Virus record (IMG/VR): IMGVR_UViG_3300009167_000028
Location: 1-29,444 of that record
Reading direction: 5' to 3' (one strand)
Length of the DNA stretch: 29,444 nt
Source: a virus
Within the stretch, counting starts at the first letter, position 1. Each line of letters opens with the position of its first letter. Positions 313 through 29,444 of this stretch are shown here, in pieces. A program made the translations under genes and the position numbers. Below the pieces are notes generated by a model. The model did no database searches, was not told the DNA's origin, and saw nothing but the letters and a program-made list of their open reading frames with translations.

Positions 313-3300
313 TCACGGGTTAATCTGCCCGACGATTGAGATCACGCGCCAACGTGAACTGGAGCCGTCGTACCAGAGGGTCCAGTTGGCCCCCCCGACG
401 ATATTCGGGGCGTCGAACAGGTGGACGATCCGGTTAGCGGCGGTGGAGGATGCATCCTCATTCGCCATCACGAGCACGTTGGCGCCTCCACCGCCGGAGA
501 TGTTGATGATGGTCAGGACCGTGCCTGATGCCTGTGCCGCTATGCCGGTGATGGTGCATGAGCCGGTCACGGTGGCGCGGATGATGTTCGCGGTGGATAG
601 TCCGGACGGGTTCCAGTTGTTCTGGCTGGAGCTGACAGACGGGGTGATGATGCCGGTTAGCCGCAGGGTTCCGGTTAGGTTCGGCGCTGCGATCTCGGAC
701 GGGCTCGGGATGAGCACCGACGTACTCGCGGCGAGCGTGATGGTGCCGCCAGCGGTCAGCCCGATGTTGGCCGTCGTGTCGACCGTGTGATTCGTGCCCG
801 CGACGGCCACGGTGCCCGTGGCTACGGCCGTAACCGGCGTCGTCGCGTGCGCGTTGATGGCGATGCCGCTCACGGCGTTGATGACCACGTCGTCGTTGGT
901 GGGATTCGTGACGGCGTGCCCGGCGCCTACCGCAACGCCGCCGGCTGTCGTCTCCACCCGCACGTCGCCGCTCGCCGTGACCGCGTGGGTCGCCCCCGTA
1001 AACGAGTGAGCCCCTGTCCAGGTCGGGCTCTCTCCATCGATGATGGCCACGACCTGCGTCGGGGTGAGCGCCGTGGGCACGCCCGTCCCCGCCCCCTCGG
1101 CGCGCCCGATGATGCGCGACTGCGCGAGGTCGGCCATCTTCGCGAGCGTCACGGCGGCGCTGTCGATGGTCCACACCGTCCCGCTCGAGGCGACCGTGAT
1201 GTCGCCCTTGTCGCCGTCTTGGATATTGGCGAATCCAACGACCTGGAGCCGGGTGTTGTCCCACGCGATGAGCACGGCGTCCCCGGCGCGCGACATGACG
1301 TAGTCCACGCCATCCGGGCACGACACGCGATTCGCGGCAGCGCTGCTCGCGCTCTGGTGGGAGATGGTGATGGTATTGCTGGCCCCAAATTTCGTGAGCC
1401 AGAACCAGGCGCCCGTGTTGCTCGAGCCGTAGGCGAACCCCGTGAAGACGACGTTGCCGCCCGACGCGGCAACGTCGAGCACGTGGACGCCGTCCGTGAT
1501 GGCCTGGTCGTTGAACGTCCCGTTGATGAACCCCGTCGAGCCGCTCGTGAGCCGCACGATGTCGCCAGTCTGTAGACCCGTGAGCGCCGTTGGCACCCCT
1601 GTCCCGGCGCCGACGGCGCGCCCGATGATGCGCGACTGCGCGAGGTCGGCCATCTTCGCGAGCGTCACGGCGGCGCTGTCGATGGTCCACACCGTCCCGC
1701 TCGAGGCGACCGTGATGTCGCCCTTGTCGCCGTCCGTGAGGGGGATGGTGACGGCCACGTCATTCGCGTTGACCGAGATGCCCGTGCCCGCGCCCACGGC
1801 CAGGACTGCCGTGCCCCCTCCGGTGAGCCCTGCTCCCGACGCATTCGTGTCGAACAGAGTGGCGTTACTGTTCTGGGCCGCCGTGATGGCGCCGGTCAGC
1901 GCCGCGCGCTGGTAGGTGTTCGACCCGATGACAATCGACGTCGAGTCGGTGGCGGCGAGGAACTCCGCCCAGTCCATGGATACCGTGTTTGCTAAAACGG
2001 CAATGAAGTCTCCCGCCCCCACCGCGAGCGGGGTGCCGGCGCCGCCCGTGAGCCCGTCGCCGGCGACGGCGACGTCGAGCTGCCACACGGTGCCGCTCGA
2101 CGAGACGACGACGTCGCCATAGTCGCCGTCCGGGACGATCCCCGTCGCCGTGTCGGGGATGTTGTTCCTGACGATGCGCGTCGTCGCGACTCCGGGTGTG
2201 TTGAGGATGCCCCCCGTCTGGTGGCCGACGTTGCGGTTGCTCTGGACCGAGTAGTTGTCACACCCAGCGGCGATGCTGATGCCGTAGCGCGTGGCAGGCG
2301 ACGCCGACCCCGGCACGATGCCCGTCTGGCAATTCTCGATTGACCAGCGCGAAACGCTCGCGTCGACCCGGATGGCGTCGTACGTGTTCGCCGTGAATAG
2401 GCCGTAGCCGCCGATGATGAGCCCGGCGATGATGAGGTCGCCCGCACCGACGATGATGGCCTCGACGCCCCCAGCAAACAGGACGCCGCCGTTGAAACGC
2501 ACATCTCCCTCGAAGGACGAGCCGATCTCGATGGCGGGCCCGTTCAGCATCGAGGTGATGAAGGTCTGCTCGAACTCCGCTTGCCCCCCGCCCTCGAGCA
2601 GGATGCCGCAGGACGCTACGTGGTCGAACTCGCAATTGAGCCCGCGCGCGAACTGAGGCGGGGACAGGCCCGCCGAGCTGTCGATCATGCGGAAACCGAC
2701 GCCGCCTTGCAGGGCGCCCGAGTCGATGAGGCGGAAGGTGTGCGCGTAATTGTCATGGAGGAACCAATCGACCAGCGGCATCGCGAGAACCCACGTGACC
2801 GAACCGTCCGTGACGGTCGCCGTGTGGGCCGTGGCGACCGTGGCGCCCGGAATCCCGCTCGGCCCGGTGCCTCCGCTCGTGCCCCCCACCGTCGCTTGGT
2901 AGATGTTGCCGTTGATGGTGACGGCGTTGCCCGCCACATAGGCGGTGCTCGCCTGCCAGTCGCGAGTGAATCCGACCACGGAGCTCGGGAAGTCGGTCCC
3001 GCACACGACGTGGTCGACGTGCAGCGAGTGTGCCACGTTCCCCGCCGTGCCATGGAAGCGGATTCCAAACGAACCATACAGGTCCGCGATGCCGCTGTCG
3101 TCGATGTGGGTGAGGACTGCCGACTCGACGTCGATGCCGTCTCCGAGCTGGCTGATGTTGAGCCGTCGCGCGTGGCAGCCGTAGGTGCCATCGAACTTGA
3201 CCGCGGCGCCCGAGGTATAGAGCGCGCCGACGCCGCGGATGCGCGTGTCCTGAATGCCCGAGTACTGGCACCCGTCGAACGTGATCCAGTCGGCCGCCGC

Positions 3301-4770
3301 CGCCGCATCGACGGTGAGGTCCGTGCCGCCCGCGAAGCGCCCGCGCCCCTGGAACACGACGCAGCTCGCGGTGACCGGGGTGAGCGCGGCCGTGACGCGG
3401 TGCGCGGCGCCGAAGTAGATCATGCCTGCCTCCGCGTTCGCGGCGGCGATGGCGGCGTTGATGGCGACCGTGTCGTCCGTCGTCCCGTCACCGGCGGCGT
3501 AGAAGGGGGAGGCCATCACGTCGTAGATGGGCGCGCCCGGGAACGTGGAGCTCAGGGTCGAACCCGTGATGACCTGGAGCCGGGTGTTGTCCCACGCGAT
3601 GAGCACCCCCGAGCCCGCGCTGCTCAGCACGAAGTCGACCGAGCCCGGGGTGCTCACCCTGTTGCCCGATGCCGAGCCCGTGTTTTGGTGCCGGATGATG
3701 ACGTTGCCGCCGGTGCCAAACTTCGTGAGCCAGAAGAACGCCCCCGTGTTCGAGCTGCCGTAGGCGAAGCCCGTGAAGATCACGTCCCCGCCGGTTGGGG
3801 CGATGTCGACGACGTGGACGCCGTCGGTGATGGCGTGATCGTTGTACGTGCCCGCGGCGACGAAACCGCTGTTGCCCGACAGTAGCCGCGCGATGCTGCC
3901 GAGCTCGAGCCCAGTCAGGTCCGTCGGGGCGCCCGTGCCCGCGCCCACGGCTCGCCCCTTGACGCGGGAAGCGACCATGTCCGCGAGCTTCGCGTTCGCG
4001 ATCGTCCCGTCCGTAATCTGTGCGTTGACGAGCTGCGCGGCGACGATGTTGCCGGCGACGCGCCCAAGCACGGTGTTCGTCCCGACCGAGACCGCAGTCG
4101 GCGCGGCGCTCGACGCCGTTGCGTTGGCGAGCACGGTGTTGGCCGCGATCGCGCTCATCGAAGTTGGAGGCACGGTCGCCGGCGTCACGCCACCAACGCC
4201 CGGGATGAACGAGACGACGACCGCGCCGCCGTCGGCGAACGGGTCGTCGTGGCTCGACTCGATGACGGCGACCGTGAGATCCCAGTACGCCCCTTGGTCG
4301 ACCATCGTCGACAGGTCGAAGCGGATGAAGCGCGCGGGGTTGATGGCGTCGGTGAGCGTGACCACGCCGAGCGGGGTCGTCGCCCCGCCCGCCATCACGT
4401 CGAGCCAGGGCGCCACGTCCACGAGCCGCCCGCTCGACTGCGACACGCGCATGACGGTCGCCGTGTCCTGGGGCGAGGCGTTCAGTCGGATGCGCCCAGC
4501 CGTTGGATCGGCCGCGCCCGTCTCGGTCGAGAAGTAGTAGCCGAGGGGGTTGCCGCTCGGGGCGTTATCGACGACCGGCAGGTAGATGTCGTTGACCTTG
4601 TTCCGCGTCGCCTTCACGGCGGGATAGAGCTCGCGGTTGATGTAGTCGACGAGGTTCTCGACGGTCGGTCGCCCGCTGAAAGGGCGCACCGCTTGCGCGA
4701 CGCCCGTGCGCTGGTTCTGGTAGCCCGCTACGCGCTGGGCTTCGGTCAGCTGCCGGTCGTCACACGCCAT
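313..4770 (-). CDS. Tailspike / tail fibre with pectate-lyase-like beta-helix (1485 aa)
   Basis: This is the last and largest gene of the virion operon and the likely receptor-binding protein. Residues 1-190 are probably the virion-attachment part. Residues 205-405 are low-complexity Thr/Ala/Gly/Val beta repeats. At about 419-450 there is the GDGTTDDTVAINAAI motif of the pectate-lyase superfamily, which opens a right-handed beta-helix of roughly 450 residues. After the helix the repeat modules return, including a second copy of the 278-405 module at about 1055-1183. The C-terminal 110 residues (SQNNWNPSGL, then ANEDASSTAANR and LWYDGSSSRWRV) match a tip domain I know from other phage fibres. 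Ala/Gly/Thr-rich modules are typical of recombining fibre genes. Depolymerase activity is plausible but no catalytic residues could be assigned. ATG start, 3 nt after the upstream stop. Confidence 0.88.
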   Translation of the reverse strand: MACDDRQLTEAQRVAGYQNQRTGVAQAVRPFSGRPTVENLVDYINRELYPAVKATRNKVNDIYLPVVDNAPSGNPLGYYFSTETGAADPTAGRIRLNASPQDTATVMRVSQSSGRLVDVAPWLDVMAGGATTPLGVVTLTDAINPARFIRFDLSTMVDQGAYWDLTVAVIESSHDDPFADGGAVVVSFIPGVGGVTPATVPPTSMSAIAANTVLANATASSAAPTAVSVGTNTVLGRVAGNIVAAQLVNAQITDGTIANAKLADMVASRVKGRAVGAGTGAPTDLTGLELGSIARLLSGNSGFVAAGTYNDHAITDGVHVVDIAPTGGDVIFTGFAYGSSNTGAFFWLTKFGTGGNVIIRHQNTGSASGNRVSTPGSVDFVLSSAGSGVLIAWDNTRLQVITGSTLSSTFPGAPIYDVMASPFYAAGDGTTDDTVAINAAIAAANAEAGMIYFGAAHRVTAALTPVTASCVVFQGRGRFAGGTDLTVDAAAAADWITFDGCQYSGIQDTRIRGVGALYTSGAAVKFDGTYGCHARRLNISQLGDGIDVESAVLTHIDDSGIADLYGSFGIRFHGTAGNVAHSLHVDHVVCGTDFPSSVVGFTRDWQASTAYVAGNAVTINGNIYQATVGGTSGGTGPSGIPGATVATAHTATVTDGSVTWVLAMPLVDWFLHDNYAHTFRLIDSGALQGGVGFRMIDSSAGLSPPQFARGLNCEFDHVASCGILLEGGGQAEFEQTFITSMLNGPAIEIGSSFEGDVRFNGGVLFAGGVEAIIVGAGDLIIAGLIIGGYGLFTANTYDAIRVDASVSRWSIENCQTGIVPGSASPATRYGISIAAGCDNYSVQSNRNVGHQTGGILNTPGVATTRIVRNNIPDTATGIVPDGDYGDVVVSSSGTVWQLDVAVAGDGLTGGAGTPLAVGAGDFIAVLANTVSMDWAEFLAATDSTSIVIGSNTYQRAALTGAITAAQNSNATLFDTNASGAGLTGGGTAVLAVGAGTGISVNANDVAVTIPLTDGDKGDITVASSGTVWTIDSAAVTLAKMADLAQSRIIGRAVGAGTGVPTALTGLQTGDIVRLTSGSTGFINGTFNDQAITDGVHVLDVAASGGNVVFTGFAYGSSNTGAWFWLTKFGASNTITISHQSASSAAANRVSCPDGVDYVMSRAGDAVLIAWDNTRLQVVGFANIQDGDKGDITVASSGTVWTIDSAAVTLAKMADLAQSRIIGRAEGAGTGVPTALTPTQVVAIIDGESPTWTGAHSFTGATHAVTASGDVRVETTAGGVAVGAGHAVTNPTNDDVVINAVSGIAINAHATTPVTAVATGTVAVAGTNHTVDTTANIGLTAGGTITLAASTSVLIPSPSEIAAPNLTGTLRLTGIITPSVSSSQNNWNPSGLSTANIIRATVTGSCTITGIAAQASGTVLTIINISGGGGANVLVMANEDASSTAANRIVHLFDAPNIVGGANWTLWYDGSSSRWRVISIVGQINP
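1098..1734. repeat. Pair of identical 121-bp repeats within the tailspike gene
   Basis: Positions 1098-1218 and 1614-1734 are identical over 121 bp by direct reading, 516 bp apart and in the same frame (516 = 172 codons). They encode the DKGDITVASSGTVWTIDSAA segment and the following LAKMADLAQSRIIGRA. A more diverged copy of the neighbouring module lies on the other side of the beta-helix; for example a stretch near 1250-1285 recurs near 3571-3606 and encodes IAWDNTRLQV. Exact identity at the DNA level suggests recent duplication or gene conversion. Confidence 0.9.
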
Positions 4771-24320: not shown

Positions 24321-24817
24321 GGCTCAGCTCCTGTACCTGAACTCAGCCGTTTTGGGCAGAGGTGCGACCAGCTCTCGCCGGACAAGATCCGCCGGACGTG
24401 TTCGTGGCTCACCCCGTAAAGCCCCGCGATGTAAACAGGATCGGTGCCTCGGCGCCTACGGATATCGAGCACGTCGGCCTCGGTGAGTTTCGCCCTCCCG
24501 TTCAGTGCGCCCTTCGGCGCCCGGCGGCGTCTCTTCGCTTCCCGGTCACGGGCGTTGTCTTTATGGGTGCCCAGGAACAGGTGCGCGGGGTTGACGCAGC
24601 TCGGGTTGTCGCATCGGTGCAAGACGCAAAGCGCCGGCTCCTCACCGTGTGCCCACTCCCACACGAGACGATGTGCGGAGTACCATCTCTGCTTCCATGG
24701 TGCGACACGGATGCTGAACCGCCCGTAGCCCTGGGTGTTCTTCGTCGACAGCCAGACCCAGCACCCGCTGGGTGTCTTGTCGACCTTGCTCCAGAATCGT
24801 TCTTCGTTCGTCATCAC
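24317..24817 (-). CDS. HNH homing endonuclease with C-terminal HTH (166 aa)
   Basis: Residues 48-80 carry the HNH_3-type nuclease core: HRLVWEW with His49, then LHRCDNPSCVNPAHL with Cys64, His67, Cys69, Cys74, Asn76 and His79. This is followed by GTHKDNARD. Residues 107-150 are a helix-turn-helix DNA-binding module (AKLTEADVLDIRRR, then IAGLYGVSHEHVRRILSG). Free-standing enzymes of this type cut phage DNA and spread themselves. It is inserted between terminase and portal, with GTGATGA and ATGA overlaps to both neighbours, so it is integrated in the operon. The GTG at 24817 or the ATG at 24814 may be the start. Catalytic residues look intact. Confidence 0.88.
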   Translation of the reverse strand: MMTNEERFWSKVDKTPSGCWVWLSTKNTQGYGRFSIRVAPWKQRWYSAHRLVWEWAHGEEPALCVLHRCDNPSCVNPAHLFLGTHKDNARDREAKRRRRAPKGALNGRAKLTEADVLDIRRRRGTDPVYIAGLYGVSHEHVRRILSGESWSHLCPKRLSSGTGAEP

Positions 24818-26322
24818 GATCCGTAGCCGTACCCGCTTGCGCGCTGGAGCGGCTCGTCGGCGTCGTTGTCGGGGCGGTCGAATTCATGCAGCTCCATCAC
24901 GATGCTGCCGGGCCCTCTACTGGCCCTAGCAGCAGCGTAAGCCACAGTGTCAAACCAATGCTTAAGCGGGCTCTTCTTGTCGGGCACGAGCGAGTCGCCC
25001 TCGTCGACCTTGATGCTGGAAAACATCTCGGCCGTCTTCTTGCAGTTGTCGAAGATCATGAGCGCCGGCGGGCGCTTGTCGTCGTAGTCACGCAGCCGCT
25101 CGCTCACGCGCTCGGCGTTGCGCTGGATCGAGGCCTTGTCGGCGGGCTCCCAGTAGATGCCGTGGTCGGCAAAGACCTGCGCCTTGCTCACGCCCGAGTC
25201 GCCGCGCTCCTCCCAGAGCTGGGTGTCGGCGACCGAGCTCATCAGACGGCTGCGGTGCTCGCGCTTATCCCAGAAGCCAAAGCTCTGCTCTATCTCCGCG
25301 ATGCGAAGGGCGCACTCCTTGTCCTTCATCAGGCGGAAGTTGAACTCATAGAAGACGTACATGTTCTCGTCCGGATCGAGCGCGACCCAGATGCACGTAC
25401 CGTGGGTCTTGTAGCCCCAGTCCATCACGCGGAACTTGGGCCAGTCGCGCGGGATCTTGAACGGCGCGATGACGTGCACGCCCGGGTTGTAGTCGTCCTC
25501 GAAGTAGCCGCCCTCGACGCTGTCCCAGTCGCCATAGAGGTAGCGCGCTCGCATGTGGGCGGGCTTGCTGAGGAGCTTGAACTTGTAGTCCCGGACGAAG
25601 CCCTTGTCGGGGTTATCGTCGAGTGTCGCAGGAAGAAACAGGCTCGTCTTCCACTCGAACTCGCCCGTGAGCGGGTCGAGCACCTTGCGCTTGAGGATGA
25701 CGTTGCCCTTGCGCTCGGGAACGACGAAGGTGTCTTTGAGCCAACCCGGCGCGGGGTTGCTCATGAGGCGCGTGCGCTTGAAGAATTTGAGCACGGGGTC
25801 GGCGGTGCGGACGCGGCCGTCGAGCTCCTCGAATTGCTTTTCTTCGAACTGGTAGGCTTCGTCGAGGACGAGGTGGGTGTACTGCTTGGAGAGATAGTCC
25901 TCGTGGCTGTTGCTCTCGCGGCAATGGCCGAACGTGTACTTGAAGCCCGAGGAGAACTCCCAGCGATGCAGCTCCTTGCTGTACTTCGCGTACGGGTCGA
26001 ACTTCGGGAACATGCGCATGGAGCGGTCGATGGTTTCCTGCAGCATGGGCATGGTGCGGCGCATGTGGAGGGCGTGCCCCTCGCTCTCGCCCTGGCGGAT
26101 CGGGTGCTTCTTGCAGAGGTCAGCGAGCCACTCGGGGAATTGCTCGAGCAGCTGCCCCGTCATGCGCGCATGCTCGATGACGGCCTGGACGACGATGGGG
26201 TCCCAGAGCGCGGTGAGGCTCTTGCCGGGTCCGGCGGCTCCTCCACCGAGCACCTGATCGCAGGTCGTCTCATGGTACTTCGCGCTCCACGGGCTCGGCT
26301 GGTAGAGGGAGCGGTCGAGCAC
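24814..26322 (-). CDS. Terminase large subunit (502 aa)
   Basis: The DNA-packaging motor. The ATPase domain has a Walker A motif GAAGPGKS at residues 28-35, Walker B LVLDEA around Asp154-Glu155, and the coupling region TRLMSNPAPGWLKDTF after it. The nuclease domain shows the expected acidic triad positions: Asp301 in VMDWGYK, Asp366 in SSVADTQLW and Asp458 in KHWFDTVAYA. Length is normal for a phage large terminase. GTG start, immediately after the TAG of the preceding gene, so the two are probably coupled. Portal follows after the HNH and zinc-ribbon genes. Confidence 0.92.
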   Translation of the reverse strand: MLDRSLYQPSPWSAKYHETTCDQVLGGGAAGPGKSLTALWDPIVVQAVIEHARMTGQLLEQFPEWLADLCKKHPIRQGESEGHALHMRRTMPMLQETIDRSMRMFPKFDPYAKYSKELHRWEFSSGFKYTFGHCRESNSHEDYLSKQYTHLVLDEAYQFEEKQFEELDGRVRTADPVLKFFKRTRLMSNPAPGWLKDTFVVPERKGNVILKRKVLDPLTGEFEWKTSLFLPATLDDNPDKGFVRDYKFKLLSKPAHMRARYLYGDWDSVEGGYFEDDYNPGVHVIAPFKIPRDWPKFRVMDWGYKTHGTCIWVALDPDENMYVFYEFNFRLMKDKECALRIAEIEQSFGFWDKREHRSRLMSSVADTQLWEERGDSGVSKAQVFADHGIYWEPADKASIQRNAERVSERLRDYDDKRPPALMIFDNCKKTAEMFSSIKVDEGDSLVPDKKSPLKHWFDTVAYAAARASRGPGSIVMELHEFDRPDNDADEPLQRASGYGYGS

Positions 26323-26894: not shown

Positions 26895-27109
26895 GACAGG
26901 GCTTCCATGCGGGGCACGAGTTTGCCGCCGACGTCGTAGTGGGTGACGGCGAAGGCGTAGGCTCCGCACGCGTGGCACTCGGCGTGGTCGATGGGACAGC
27001 CCTGGGGCTGGATGCTGATGGCCTCGGCGTGGCAGGCGCGGCAGTGGCCTTTGACGACCCGCCAGATGCGCCGTCGGGAGTCGAGCTCAATCACTTGGGC
27101 GGTCATCAT
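26891..27109 (-). CDS. Small zinc-ribbon protein (72 aa)
   Basis: Cys23 and Cys26 (GHCRACHAEA) and Cys45 and Cys48 (AECHACGAYAF) make a Cys-x2-Cys/Cys-x2-Cys zinc ribbon, with an additional Cys38. The C-terminus is VTHYDVGGKLVPRMEALS. The frame starts with two consecutive ATGs, and an AAGGAGG sits 4 nt before the first and 7 nt before the second, so the second may be used. It overlaps the stop of the preceding gene (ATGATGA). Function unknown; DNA or RNA binding is possible. Confidence 0.75.
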   Translation of the reverse strand: MMTAQVIELDSRRRIWRVVKGHCRACHAEAISIQPQGCPIDHAECHACGAYAFAVTHYDVGGKLVPRMEALS

Positions 27110-27534
27110 TCGACCTCCTTCGAGGGGTAAACGGGGGCACCGGGCATGCCGGCGGCGGTGGGGGCGGGGAGCGCAATCTTGGCGTTCACTTCGCGGGGCC
27201 CCTGGGTCAGGTGTGGGGAGCGCCGGGCGCGGCTGATGCCGATGACCATGCTCTTGGCGAGGTCGATGCCGCTGGCGGACAGGGATTTGGGGGCCCAGCC
27301 CTGTTTGGCGACCTCGAGCCTCCGTTTGGCGGCCTCCGCCCCGTACTGCTCGACCCATTCGGGTGGGGGGTCTGCCTGATCGGGGGCGATGTGGCAGAAA
27401 TCGAGGGCGGCGCGCAGGATTCCGGAGGCCTGTTGGTAGACCTCGTCCTCGATTTCGAGCATCCGGGTGAGGCGGGAGGCCTTGCCCTCCTCGCCGTGGA
27501 TCTCCCGGAGCAGTGGCGTCGGGTAGAACGTCAT
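27106..27534 (-). CDS. First gene of the packaging operon, small-terminase candidate (142 aa)
   Basis: The protein is helical in the first 60 residues (ASRLTRMLEIEDEVYQQASGILRAALDFCHI), then PPPEWVEQYGAEAAKRRLEVAKQGWAPKSL, a helix with SGIDLAKSMVIGISRARR, and an extended tail ending VYPSKEVE. Proteins of this shape occur ahead of large terminase in other phages and may be the small subunit that recognises DNA, but I cannot see a clear helix-turn-helix. The ATG at 27534 is taken; a GTG 18 nt upstream at 27552 is the alternative and would overlap the divergent plus-strand gene's start. No good ribosome binding site precedes either. Confidence 0.6.
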   Translation of the reverse strand: MTFYPTPLLREIHGEEGKASRLTRMLEIEDEVYQQASGILRAALDFCHIAPDQADPPPEWVEQYGAEAAKRRLEVAKQGWAPKSLSASGIDLAKSMVIGISRARRSPHLTQGPREVNAKIALPAPTAAGMPGAPVYPSKEVE

Positions 27535-27545
27535 GCGGGAGCAAT

Positions 27546-27878
27546 ATGACACGCCGTCCGGTCAGTGACGAACGTTCAGTGGTGGGGCCGGCCGAGAAGA
27601 ACGCGAAAACCGAGAGGTTTTACCTCGTAGAGATCGCGTTGTTTCTGCGGGCGAAGCGGAAGGATGTGGCGGAATTCCTTCGTGCACGGCATCTGCTGCG
27701 CAGGGGGAGGCCCGGGACGGGTCGGCAGGATGTGCACTGGACGTCGGCGCGCGGGGTGGCCCTCGCGGTGGCTCATTTCCGGGCAATTCAGGGGTACAAG
27801 CTCGAGCGAGGGGTGGATCGGATCGGACTGTCGGAGCGAGAACGGGCGAAGAGGGCCCTGCTCAGGGATTCAGGCTGA
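27546..27878 (+). CDS. Probable winged-helix DNA-binding regulator (110 aa)
   Basis: Residues 25-80 look like a small winged-helix or MerR-like DNA-binding domain: FYLVEIALFLRAKRKDVAEFLRARHLL, a GRPGTGRQ wing and DVHWTSARGVALAVAHF. The C-terminus is basic and helical (ERERAKRALLRDSG). It is the first gene of the plus-strand cluster and diverges from the packaging operon with at most 11 nt between start codons. GGGAG precedes the ATG by 5 nt. A GAACGTTC palindrome lies in its 5' part and a CTGAACAT/ATGTTCAG inverted repeat at its stop codon. It may be the regulator that reads these sites, which is inference. Confidence 0.6.
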   Translation: MTRRPVSDERSVVGPAEKNAKTERFYLVEIALFLRAKRKDVAEFLRARHLLRRGRPGTGRQDVHWTSARGVALAVAHFRAIQGYKLERGVDRIGLSERERAKRALLRDSG

Positions 27879-27896
27879 ACATCCGGATATGTTCAG
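27875..27896. promoter_or_regulatory. Operator-like inverted repeat CTGAACAT-n6-ATGTTCAG
   Basis: Two perfect 8-bp arms around a 6-bp spacer (CCGGAT), overlapping the stop codon of the 110-aa regulator gene and preceding a 199-nt stretch with at most one tiny ORF. The same CTGAACATCCG 11-mer recurs at 29092-29102. The geometry fits a dimeric repressor or LexA-type operator controlling the small plus-strand cluster. There is no T-tract, so it is not a terminator. Confidence 0.6.
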
Positions 27897-27925
27897 TATT
27901 GCAATCCCATTGGCCGGGACAGAAG

Positions 27926-28057
27926 ATGAGTACTGCGGAGGCCGCCGCAGCAGTACGAGACGACATCGCCGAAACCGCGGTGGTGTCAGACTACCTGTTC
28001 GTCTGTTCAGCTACCCGTGGGTGGGGAAATCCGGTATTCGGCGGGGATGGGGACTGA
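27926..28057 (+). CDS. Possible tiny protein in the operator region (43 aa)
   Basis: An ATG-started frame beginning MSTAEAAAAVRDDIAETAVV and ending NPVFGGDGD, with AGAAG touching the start codon. The amino acid composition is protein-like (Ala/Asp/Val, one Trp, one Cys), unlike the Arg-rich shadows. It fills most of the 27879-28077 gap; the rest of that gap holds the operator-like repeat and no other feature I could see. Without homologues this remains a guess. Confidence 0.38.
   Translation: MSTAEAAAAVRDDIAETAVVSDYLFVCSATRGWGNPVFGGDGD
27995..28011 (+). promoter_or_regulatory. LexA-box-like site
   Basis: The sequence CTGTTCGTCTGTTCAGC matches the Myxococcus xanthus LexA box as I remember it (CTRHAMRYBYGTTCAGS) at 16 of 17 positions, the fifth base being the mismatch. 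It lies within the possible 43-aa ORF and upstream of the 61-aa gene. The match depends on my memory of the consensus. It may equally be one more copy of the phage's own TGTTCAG repeat family. Confidence 0.3.
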
Positions 28058-28077
28058 GGACGAAAACGTGCGCTGCG

Positions 28078-28263
28078 ATGACGTTGATCGAGCCCGTGCG
28101 CTGCGATGACGCGGAGCAGATCATCGCGGCCATCAAGATGATCAAGGGCGTCGTCGACGTCGTGCCGGTGGTGGCTGATGCGGGCACGTACTGGGGGCGG
28201 AGCACGGCGCGGCGGGAGCTGCTCAAGAAGATCTGGGATCTGATGCAGCAGGAGAACGTGTGA
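28078..28263 (+). CDS. Small ferredoxin-like-fold phage protein (61 aa)
   Basis: The pattern IEPVRCDDAEQIIAAIKMIKGVVDVVPVVAD (strand, helix, strand) followed by ARRELLKKIWDLMQQ (helix) is that of small phage proteins with a ferredoxin-like or ACT-like fold whose role is unknown. The 138 codons upstream in the same frame are Arg/Gly-rich shadow, so the internal ATG at 28078 is used. A 17-bp direct repeat (28067-28083 and 28095-28111, CGTGCGCTGCGATGACG) spans the start codon. Its stop overlaps the next start (GTGTGA). Confidence 0.7.
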   Translation: MTLIEPVRCDDAEQIIAAIKMIKGVVDVVPVVADAGTYWGRSTARRELLKKIWDLMQQENV

Positions 28264-28454
28264 CGGAGTGGACGAGCAAGGGGCGGTACCCCGATCGGGT
28301 GACGAGCGTGCGGGTGGAGCTACGGGGCGCTCACGCGCACCTCACCGTGTTCTGGTGCGGCAAAATCGCGGGCACGCTGGTCGTGGGTGAGGACGAGGCT
28401 CTGGCGCTCGAGAGCGTGCTGCTCGGCGAGGTGTTGCCGGAGGAGCGGGAGTGA
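28260..28454 (+). CDS. Small hypothetical protein A of plus-strand cluster (64 aa)
   Basis: Unrecognised. RVELRGAHAHLTVFWCGKIAGTLVVGEDE suggests three beta strands, and ALALESVLLGEVLPEERE a C-terminal helix. GTG start overlapping the previous stop and GTG of the next gene overlapping its own stop (GTGA). The segment LVVGEDEALALESVLL is repeated, from identical DNA, in the 52-aa gene 280 bp downstream. Confidence 0.65.
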   Translation: MTEWTSKGRYPDRVTSVRVELRGAHAHLTVFWCGKIAGTLVVGEDEALALESVLLGEVLPEERE

Positions 28455-28703
28455 CGGAGTGGACGCCGGAGTTGCGGCTCATGCTGGTGCTCGAAGCCGC
28501 TCTCGAACAGTTTGACGAAGCCAACCGAGTGGCGCCCGACGCTCACGCGAAGGAGTGCGACTGCGAGTTATGCGCGTTCGTGGCCGCGATTCGGGAAGCG
28601 TTGTCCCGGCCTCCCGGTTCCTGATGGCGCCCCCGATGCAGTACCTGACGAGCGACTTGGTCGTGGGTGAGGACGAGGCTCTGGCGCTCGAGAGCGTGCT
28701 GCT
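28378..28703. repeat. 46-bp perfect direct repeat, 280 bp apart
   Basis: Positions 28378-28423 and 28658-28703 are identical over 46 bp. The flanking bases diverge at once. Both copies are read in the same protein frame within their own small genes, giving LVVGEDEALALESVLL twice. Such exact identity over coding DNA indicates recent duplication, gene conversion or selection on the DNA itself. Confidence 0.92.
28451..28624 (+). CDS. Small hypothetical Cys-cluster protein (57 aa)
   Basis: GTG-started ORF overlapping the previous stop (GTGA) and ending where the next ATG begins (TGATG). The beginning VTEWTPELRLM echoes the MTEWTSKGR opening of the gene before it. After a helix (LMLVLEAALEQFDEANR) comes Cys-x-Cys-x2-Cys (KECDCELCAF), possibly a metal site, and a helix (VAAIREALS). 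It is too short for many gene finders. Function unknown. Confidence 0.55.
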   Translation: MTEWTPELRLMLVLEAALEQFDEANRVAPDAHAKECDCELCAFVAAIREALSRPPGS

Positions 28704-28782
28704 TAGCGATGTGCTCCCCGAGGCCCGGGCCTTCTGGTTCCGAGTTGTAAATTTCAGATGGGTGGGCTCGGGGGTGAGATGA
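28624..28782 (+). CDS. Small protein with duplicated segment (52 aa), possibly a degenerate copy
   Basis: Begins with an ATG sharing the last base of the previous stop and ends with a stop overlapping the next ATG (ATGA). Residues 12-27 (LVVGEDEALALESVLL) duplicate a part of the 64-aa protein. The remainder (AFWFRVVNFRWVGSGVR) is unrelated, aromatic and basic. It may be a chimera made by the 46-bp duplication rather than a functional gene, although both stop and start coupling are preserved. Confidence 0.45.
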   Translation: MAPPMQYLTSDLVVGEDEALALESVLLSDVLPEARAFWFRVVNFRWVGSGVR

Positions 28783-28988
28783 GCAAAGCGAAGCATCGGT
28801 CAGAGCCAGATCCGGCGTTCGACTATCGGGCGTTCGATCGCGACCAGGTGCCTGCTCTGGAGGCAAAGCGCTGGGTGCGGTGCACGAAGGCCGAGGCGCA
28901 CGACTACTGGCTGATGGGGCTCGACGAGACGCTCGAGGCAGCTGGGCTCGTGGCGATGAAGCGGCTTCGCAAGCCGGCCCGCGGGTGA
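28779..28988 (+). CDS. Small hypothetical protein ending the plus-strand cluster (69 aa)
   Basis: Unrecognised. N-terminus SKAKHRSEPDPAFDYRAFDRDQVPALEAKRW, then helical VRCTKAEAHDYWLMGLDETLEAAGLVAMKRLRKP. Charged and soluble. ATG chosen at 28779 because it overlaps the upstream stop (ATGA) and follows a GGGGTGAG stretch; an ATG 21 nt upstream is in frame too. A small stem (CGGCTT/AAGCCG, 28962-28976) lies near its end but no T-tract follows. Confidence 0.6.
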   Translation: MSKAKHRSEPDPAFDYRAFDRDQVPALEAKRWVRCTKAEAHDYWLMGLDETLEAAGLVAMKRLRKPARG

Positions 28989-29416
28989 TCGGGTCCGGCC
29001 GCTCGGGTCCGAGTTCTGTGAGTTAGAAATACGGGCTGGGGTGGTTCGCCCTGCGTTCGCCGGGGGTGGGGGGCCGGGGGGTACCCGGTACCTGAACATC
29101 CGAGGAGTGGCACTGAACACTCGAGGAGCTGCAGCCGCATGTTCAGTGTCAAGCGCGCAGCGTCCGATCGCATGCTGAACAAACGAGCGGTGTCAGCTGC
29201 GCAGTGTCATACGCACCACTGAACAGCCGGCACTGAGCACTCGAGGAGCGTCACGGTCCGTTCAGTAGCAGGCGAGCAGCCCTGCCCCGGATCGGCGAGC
29301 TATCTGCTCCCCTGCCTCGATTGATAGGTGCGCCGCACCCGTGGGTGAGCTAGGTTTGTGAGGCCCGGTGAGCTGCGGGGGTCACTTCAGACCGGCCCGC
29401 TCCCATCGGTAAGGCC
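28989..29416. other. Non-coding control-like region
   Basis: No convincing ORF on either strand. It contains G-runs of 5, 6 and 6 at 29062-29081, a GGTACC-C-GGTACC inverted repeat at 29080-29092, the CTGAACA repeat array at 29092-29269, and a GGTGCG/CGCACC inverted repeat at 29327-29339. Such density of repeats in a phage that otherwise leaves almost no gaps points to an operator cluster, origin or partition site. Confidence 0.6.
29092..29269. repeat. CTGAACA / TGTTCAG repeat array
   Basis: Seven copies of a CTGAAC-type core in about 180 bp, in both orientations: 29092 (CTGAACAT), 29113 (CTGAACAC), 29139 (ATGTTCAG, reverse), 29174 (CTGAACAA), 29219 (CTGAACAG), 29233 (CTGAGCAC, one change) and 29260 (CGTTCAG, reverse). 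Two copies extend to a 20-bp unit, GCACTGAACACTCGAGGAGC at 29110-29129 and the same with one substitution at 29230-29249. Between them a GTGTCA-n-GCGCAG-n-GTC element occurs twice (about 29145-29163 and 29190-29208). The first two copies are 21 bp apart, that is two helical turns. Confidence 0.75.
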
Positions 29417-29444
29417 ATGTCGGCCGCCCAACCCACGGAGTTAC
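29417..29444 (+). CDS. Possible start of next gene (partial)
   Basis: An ATG followed by nine open codons (MSAAQPTEL) to the end of the window, with AAGG 2 nt upstream, a poor spacing. It would be the first gene after the repeat array. Too short to judge. Confidence 0.25.

Follow-up and report, generated by a model that had tools for sequence, protein, structure and literature searches.

BldC of Streptomyces, a small MerR-type winged helix-turn-helix protein, uses same-strand repeats as its binding units; these repeats are 9 bp long, AT-rich and arranged head-to-tail (PMC5859096). The operators and stoperators of L5-type mycobacteriophages are short asymmetric multi-copy sites at a promoter and in intergenic positions; they are 13-mers, number more than 20, occur genome-wide and are oriented with transcription (PMC9283540). 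In lambda, the cosB R sites are clustered near the terminase genes and are read by gpNu1, which has a MerR-like DNA-binding domain, and the iteron origins of plasmids or phages consist of clustered intergenic repeats. We examined an array of short repeats with likenesses to each of these systems, located in a 29,444-base virus record (the window, meaning the whole stretch analysed). On balance, we regard the array as a multi-site operator element. The phage lineage that carries it is probably temperate and probably infects a myxobacterium.

The window covers part of a tailed-phage genome of ~48 kb, in which the portal and other structural genes are read leftward, as is the large terminase. Among the matches listed, the best identity of this terminase to isolated phages, which include Pelagibacter, Roseobacter and HMO-2011 phages, was ~27-30% or less. 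Relatives were drawn from IMG/VR by means of the large terminase. One of them, G003 (48 kb), closed into a circle through the array with a 127-base exact end overlap, and G006 likewise wrapped. Among the proteins of the relatives are SSB, an exonuclease, one protein with an integrase domain and one with a LexA-type DNA-binding domain, suggesting that the lineage is probably temperate. The only host lead is L057 (JAICQQ010000184.1), whose terminase is 92% identical to that of the window and whose contig was binned into a Polyangiaceae (Myxococcota) MAG; it may be co-binned virus DNA. The array had no DNA match among 50,697 phage records, and the lineage is barely known. G003 also encodes a 575-residue protein (L019:539-2266, plus strand) with an N-terminal part matching a 5'-3' exonuclease family and a C-terminal part matching the single-strand annealing protein family phrog_3290 (2.8e-49), an apparent exonuclease-annealase fusion. 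In the window, a 1485-residue protein (313-4770, minus strand) had weak beta-helix/rhamnogalacturonase-like and carbohydrate-binding-module matches and is a possible tail depolymerase.

A preliminary description counted seven motif copies in mixed orientation at 29092-29269, and this count held, with the copies spanning 29092-29265. Five copies are exact CTGAACA/TGTTCAG, at 29092(+), 29113(+), 29140(-), 29175(+) and 29219(+), and two are one-base variants, CTGAGCA at 29233(+) and CGTTCAG ending at 29265(-). The two copies reported as extended, GGCACTGAACACTCGAGGAGC and GGCACTGAGCACTCGAGGAGC, are identical at 20 of 21 positions. Exact CTGAACA occurred 11 times in the window compared to 1.58 expected (maximum over 100 shuffles, 6); five of the 11 fall in 29092-29225, and no other 200-bp stretch of the window is as rich in the motif. 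The isolated copies listed earlier are real, with two coordinates shifted by one base: a CGTTCAG variant lies at 27573 (given as 27572), and exact copies lie at 27875, 27890 (given as 27889) and 28004. The placement of the array beyond a small-gene cluster is correct for the window, but the window is only part of the genome, and in relatives a rightward gene, of differing identity, begins past the array.

Motif density was not equal genome-wide. ACTGAAC(A/G) was found eight times inside and never outside the segment from the 110-residue gene to the array (2.3 kb in G003) in G003, six times inside and once outside in G006, and six times inside and twice outside in the window. In contrast to the L5 sites, the sites here are nearly confined to one segment, and both orientations occur within one array. 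The array was present in every relative whose sequence reaches the locus, close relatives included. It is real, conserved, locus-specific and operator-like, and its anatomy and the selection described below suggest that it functions as an operator.

The half-site reads CACTGAAC(A/G). Half-sites on one strand form pairs at 14-bp spacing, and two such pairs converge on a core of 18-20 bp, which often reads GAGGAG(C/T)TGCA. The commonest unit in an alignment of seven arrays was ACTGAACA-N3-GAGGAG(C/T)TGCA-N5/6-(C/T)GTTCAGT, with outer half-sites frequently 14 bp outside the inner ones. Compared to 5000 random placements, same-strand pairs at 14-15 bp numbered 18 against 1.8 (maximum 8) and convergent pairs at 32-33 bp numbered 16 against 0.8 (maximum 6) in nine arrays, which come from non-independent relatives, so that the excess reflects conserved architecture and not independent events. 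A phase of 21 bp between the first two copies, earlier taken to favor cooperative binding on one DNA face, was seen in this window only; the spacings shared with relatives are 14-15 and 32-33 bp. Whereas the BldC repeats are AT-rich and head-to-tail, those seen here are 14-15 bp apart, GC-rich and arranged as two facing pairs, with the 110-residue protein as their putative binder. Coordinates are given in the table.

Features of the array locus and of the neighboring leftward operon in the window (strand "." where the feature has no single orientation)
Feature	Position	Strand	Remark
Large terminase	24814-26322	-	PHROG terminase family match, 4e-25
First gene of leftward terminase/structural operon, 142 residues from ATG 27534	27106..27534	-	
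110-residue protein gene (predicted MerR-like winged helix-turn-helix)	27546..27878	+	Candidate site binder
Promoter-proximal site ACTGAACGTTCGTCACTG: half-site and degenerate second copy 14 bp on	27563..27580	-	Within 5' end of 110-residue gene
CTGAACA-N8-TGTTCAG palindrome at stop codon of 110-residue gene	27875..27896	.	Window only
Conserved single site; + strand reads TGTTCAGCTAC	28004..28014	-	
Conserved block GGTTCGCCC, upstream of array	29043..29051	+	
Conserved block GGGGGTACCCGG, array left edge	29077..29088	+	Retained where array motif drifted
Single half-site CTGAACA with extension CTGAACATCCGAGGAG	29092..29107	+	
Unit 1: ACTGAACA...GAGGAGCTGCA...TGTTCAGT, half-sites convergent	29112..29147	.	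Shared with L005, L006, L009, L014, L015
Single half-site CTGAACAAACGAGCGG	29175..29190	+	
Unit 2: tandem ACTGAACA / ACTGAGCA 14 bp apart, core GAGGAGCGTCACGG, convergent CGTTCAGT	29218..29266	.	
Conserved block GGCGAGCTATCTGC, right of array	29294..29307	+	Candidate promoter element
Conserved inverted repeat GGTGC-GCC-GCACC	29327..29339	.	

Convergent arms such as ACTGAACA...TGTTCAGT are able to pair, and the array could conceivably be an RNA-level element forming transcript hairpins. This is highly improbable: the arms vary independently, with TGAGCAGT opposite ACTGAACA in L009, L014 and L015, single and same-strand copies are unable to pair, and the first unit is inverted in L057. The lack of arm co-variation and the inverted unit led us to reject hairpins. 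The inversion and the arms that are unable to pair both suggest that the array acts as double-stranded DNA.

The seven aligned arrays share a conserved non-coding module in the order GGTTCGCCC(C), GGGGGTACCCGG, the half-sites, GGCGAGC-NANN-TGC, GGTGC-N3-GCACC and the start of the rightward gene. Read by eye, the GGCGAGC..TGC block showed GG-N10-GC spacing, as in sigma-54 -24/-12 elements, in 11 of 12 sequences; a sigma-54-type promoter at this block is a lead only. Different small rightward genes to the right of the array in L006, L014, L015 and L057, and at 29433-29444 in the window, are preceded by a leader resembling CCAACCnGAGTTACAGCC immediately before the ATG.

A further copy lies within the start of the divergent 110-residue gene. 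CAGTGAC-N3-CGTTCAGT was kept in the first twelve codons of this gene in 12 sequences; 11 of these are identical through GAA, and the other, L035, has ACC for GAA and retains both half-sites. Synonymous differences among the 12 sequences were 2.6% over codons 6-12, which hold the promoter copy, compared to 37% in the rest of the gene, showing DNA-level selection at this site. Read leftward, the half-site is followed by one base, TCGTCA, 17 nt, CATATT and then the terminase/structural operon. Of the 11 sequences listed, 10 have the arrangement ACTGAACG-N1-TCGTCA-N17-CATATT ahead of the operon, and the eleventh has GTGTCA. Because the hexamers are weak (8/12) and were not among the predictions of a generic promoter scanner, this candidate -35/-10-like promoter remains a proposal. 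In L006, L007 and L057 a perfect TTGACA adjoins the site; it overlaps a conserved RNA-like element and may for that reason not be a -35. The protein encoded by the operon's first gene (148 residues if counted from an upstream GTG) is small-terminase-like by position only, and structure comparison of its fold gave no informative match.

More distant relatives showed joint presence or joint loss of the two kinds of site. The promoter copy and the CTGAAC array were both present in the close group and in L035 and L039, whose terminases are ~75% identical and which carry CTGAAC-type sites within the array as well as at the promoter (with one mismatch in L039). Both were absent from L038, L047, L054 and L056. 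The flanking block GGGGGTACCC was retained in L047, L054 and L056, and L047 and L056 have ACTGCGC-like sites in place of CTGAAC. Joint loss of this kind is what a change of operator specificity would be expected to look like, here in few lineages.

Under the operator reading, a phage-encoded DNA-binding protein would recognize the half-site and bind tandem half-sites 14 bp apart, two such pairs facing across the 18-20-bp core and two or three facing units making up an array. Further targets of this protein would be the scattered sites near 27.9-28.0 kb and the one conserved site that immediately precedes the -35-like hexamer of the leftward operon. Cooperative binding would then switch both the leftward operon and the putative rightward promoter by the array (29294-29307, the GGCGAGC-N4-CTGC-like block), thereby coordinating early and late expression. 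The most likely binder would be the winged helix-turn-helix protein of 110 residues, since the promoter-proximal site lies in its gene. We infer the identity of the binder, both promoters and the sign of regulation.

A more specific proposal, which we advance tentatively, is a new type of switch in an uncultured myxobacterial phage lineage: a small MerR-like protein would act on facing 14-bp direct-repeat pairs in a multi-unit array, a copy in its own gene would control the terminase/structural operon, and specificity would have changed between sub-lineages. If true, it would add an operator grammar of a new kind, with an operator inside the coding start of the binder's own gene, and would offer a protein and its site for direct testing. 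The switches of myxobacterial phages are poorly known, and a full-text literature search on operators and repressors of myxophages or Myxococcus phages found nothing.

The regulator of 110 residues (counted from ATG 27546) named in the preliminary description is a predicted MerR-like winged helix-turn-helix protein. Its family comprises 30 loci entries, distant lineages included, some of which are overlapping copies of one contig. The AlphaFold2 model (mean pLDDT 82.6) consists of a winged helix-turn-helix followed by two helices, and its structural matches are MerR-type DNA-binding domains, RacA, BldC, MerR-family regulators, phage Xis and lambda gpNu1 among them; fold alone shows no function. 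Viral matches of the protein are annotated as MerR-like or HTH. The prediction is credible for the fold class and tentative for the family. Viral contigs gave no match in a protein search that used only the 110-residue query, and among 318 genomes from the class of the candidate host, the protein was found only on the MAG contig already known. We know of no lysogeny-repressor function for this protein. Its recognition helix differs among relatives that have an identical site, which weakens it as a binder; it nevertheless remains the most likely candidate.

The best structural match (Z 8.0 over 53 residues) was to the DNA-binding domain of pSK1 Par in complex with centromere DNA. This match, and the clustering of repeats near the 110-residue gene, would suit a partition site, with the protein as a single-protein partition factor and the array as its centromere. 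However, by the tool's own warning a Z near 8 may reflect a common arrangement, no ParA-like gene was found among the partial set of proteins searched, and the integrase-domain protein in relatives suggests that these phages probably integrate. We consider a partition site very unlikely.

The gpNu1 match (Z 4.3) raises the possibility that the array is the terminase-recognition part of cos or pac, read by a small terminase subunit in the manner of the lambda cosB R sites. Relative to the terminase operon, the array lies ~1-3 kb upstream of the first gene, a side on which cos is often found, and the conserved inverted repeat adjoins the array. In contrast to the lambda case, the 110-residue gene is divergent from the terminase operon, and its start holds a conserved copy. 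G003 is closed through the array and G006 also wraps, and contigs ending near the array end at differing homologous positions, which together argue against fixed genome ends. A packaging site is an unlikely reading, though the position and the gpNu1-like fold would fit it.

It is similarly unlikely that the half-sites are iterons of a replication origin bound by a phage initiator. The array is intergenic with sites in both orientations, it was the highest-scoring tandem repeat found in G003, and no obvious iterons surround the replication-protein-like gene. A likeness to the iterons of P4 or RK2 is conceivable. Unlike iteron origins, the array lacks an AT-rich stretch, a recognized adjacent initiator gene and a skew change. 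In G003 and G006, the 60-bp segments of lowest GC lie away from the array, and the GC-skew analysis suggested earlier revealed no switch at the array. The nearest recognized replication gene, ssb, is 3 kb off and the replication-protein-like gene 11 kb off, and a copy is under DNA-level selection at the start of a divergent operon. The 110-residue protein could conceivably itself be an initiator. Of the three readings offered in the preliminary description, operators of a phage regulator are the best supported, and the evidence speaks clearly neither for nor against iterons or a centromere.

Host LexA had been named as a second possible binder, which would make the sites SOS operators. The Myxococcus SOS box, CTRHAMRYBYGTTCAGS (PMC9705874), ends in the same GTTCAG half-site, and one relative is in a Polyangiaceae MAG. 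However, this box was absent from the window, G003 and G006, and the array spacings of 14 and 32 bp contrast with the 4-bp gap of LexA boxes. We reject host LexA as the binder on spacing, leaving SOS operators a negligible prospect. A phage protein of ~80 residues, encoded at L018:14719-14970 (-) and L021:16574-16813 (+), has only a LexA-type DNA-binding domain (PF01726, 5.8e-7) and is a probable lysogeny repressor. It is an unlikely binder of the array because the region upstream of its own gene has GTCTACATGTCGAC-like palindromes and no CTGAAC. The same upstream region holds the lowest-GC spot of G003.

A separate conserved element of ~80-110 nt, with middles of variable length across the lineage, lies at 27898-27987 (+) in the window. 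It follows the pattern CTTGCAATCyC..GCCGG..CAGAAGATGAG - variable loop - GA..AATCGCCGAAACCGCGG(T/C)GGTGT and is also present in L006-L009, L012, L014, L015, L037, L042, L044, L045, L047, L056, L057, L059, L063 and L066-L069. In Rfam, L018 and L015 gave nothing at the gathering threshold, and window 27500-29444 gave a single miRNA hit at chance level. A 4-bp stem after GATGA co-varies (GUAC/GUAC, GUCC/GGAC, GCGC/GCGC, GCUC/GAGC), with 11 compensatory cells compared to 3.5 in shuffles for hand-chosen segments, and slid controls failed. The element looks like an undescribed structured RNA. At 28378-28449 and 28658-28729, a 72-bp direct duplication with 89% identity takes in the end of a small rightward ORF.
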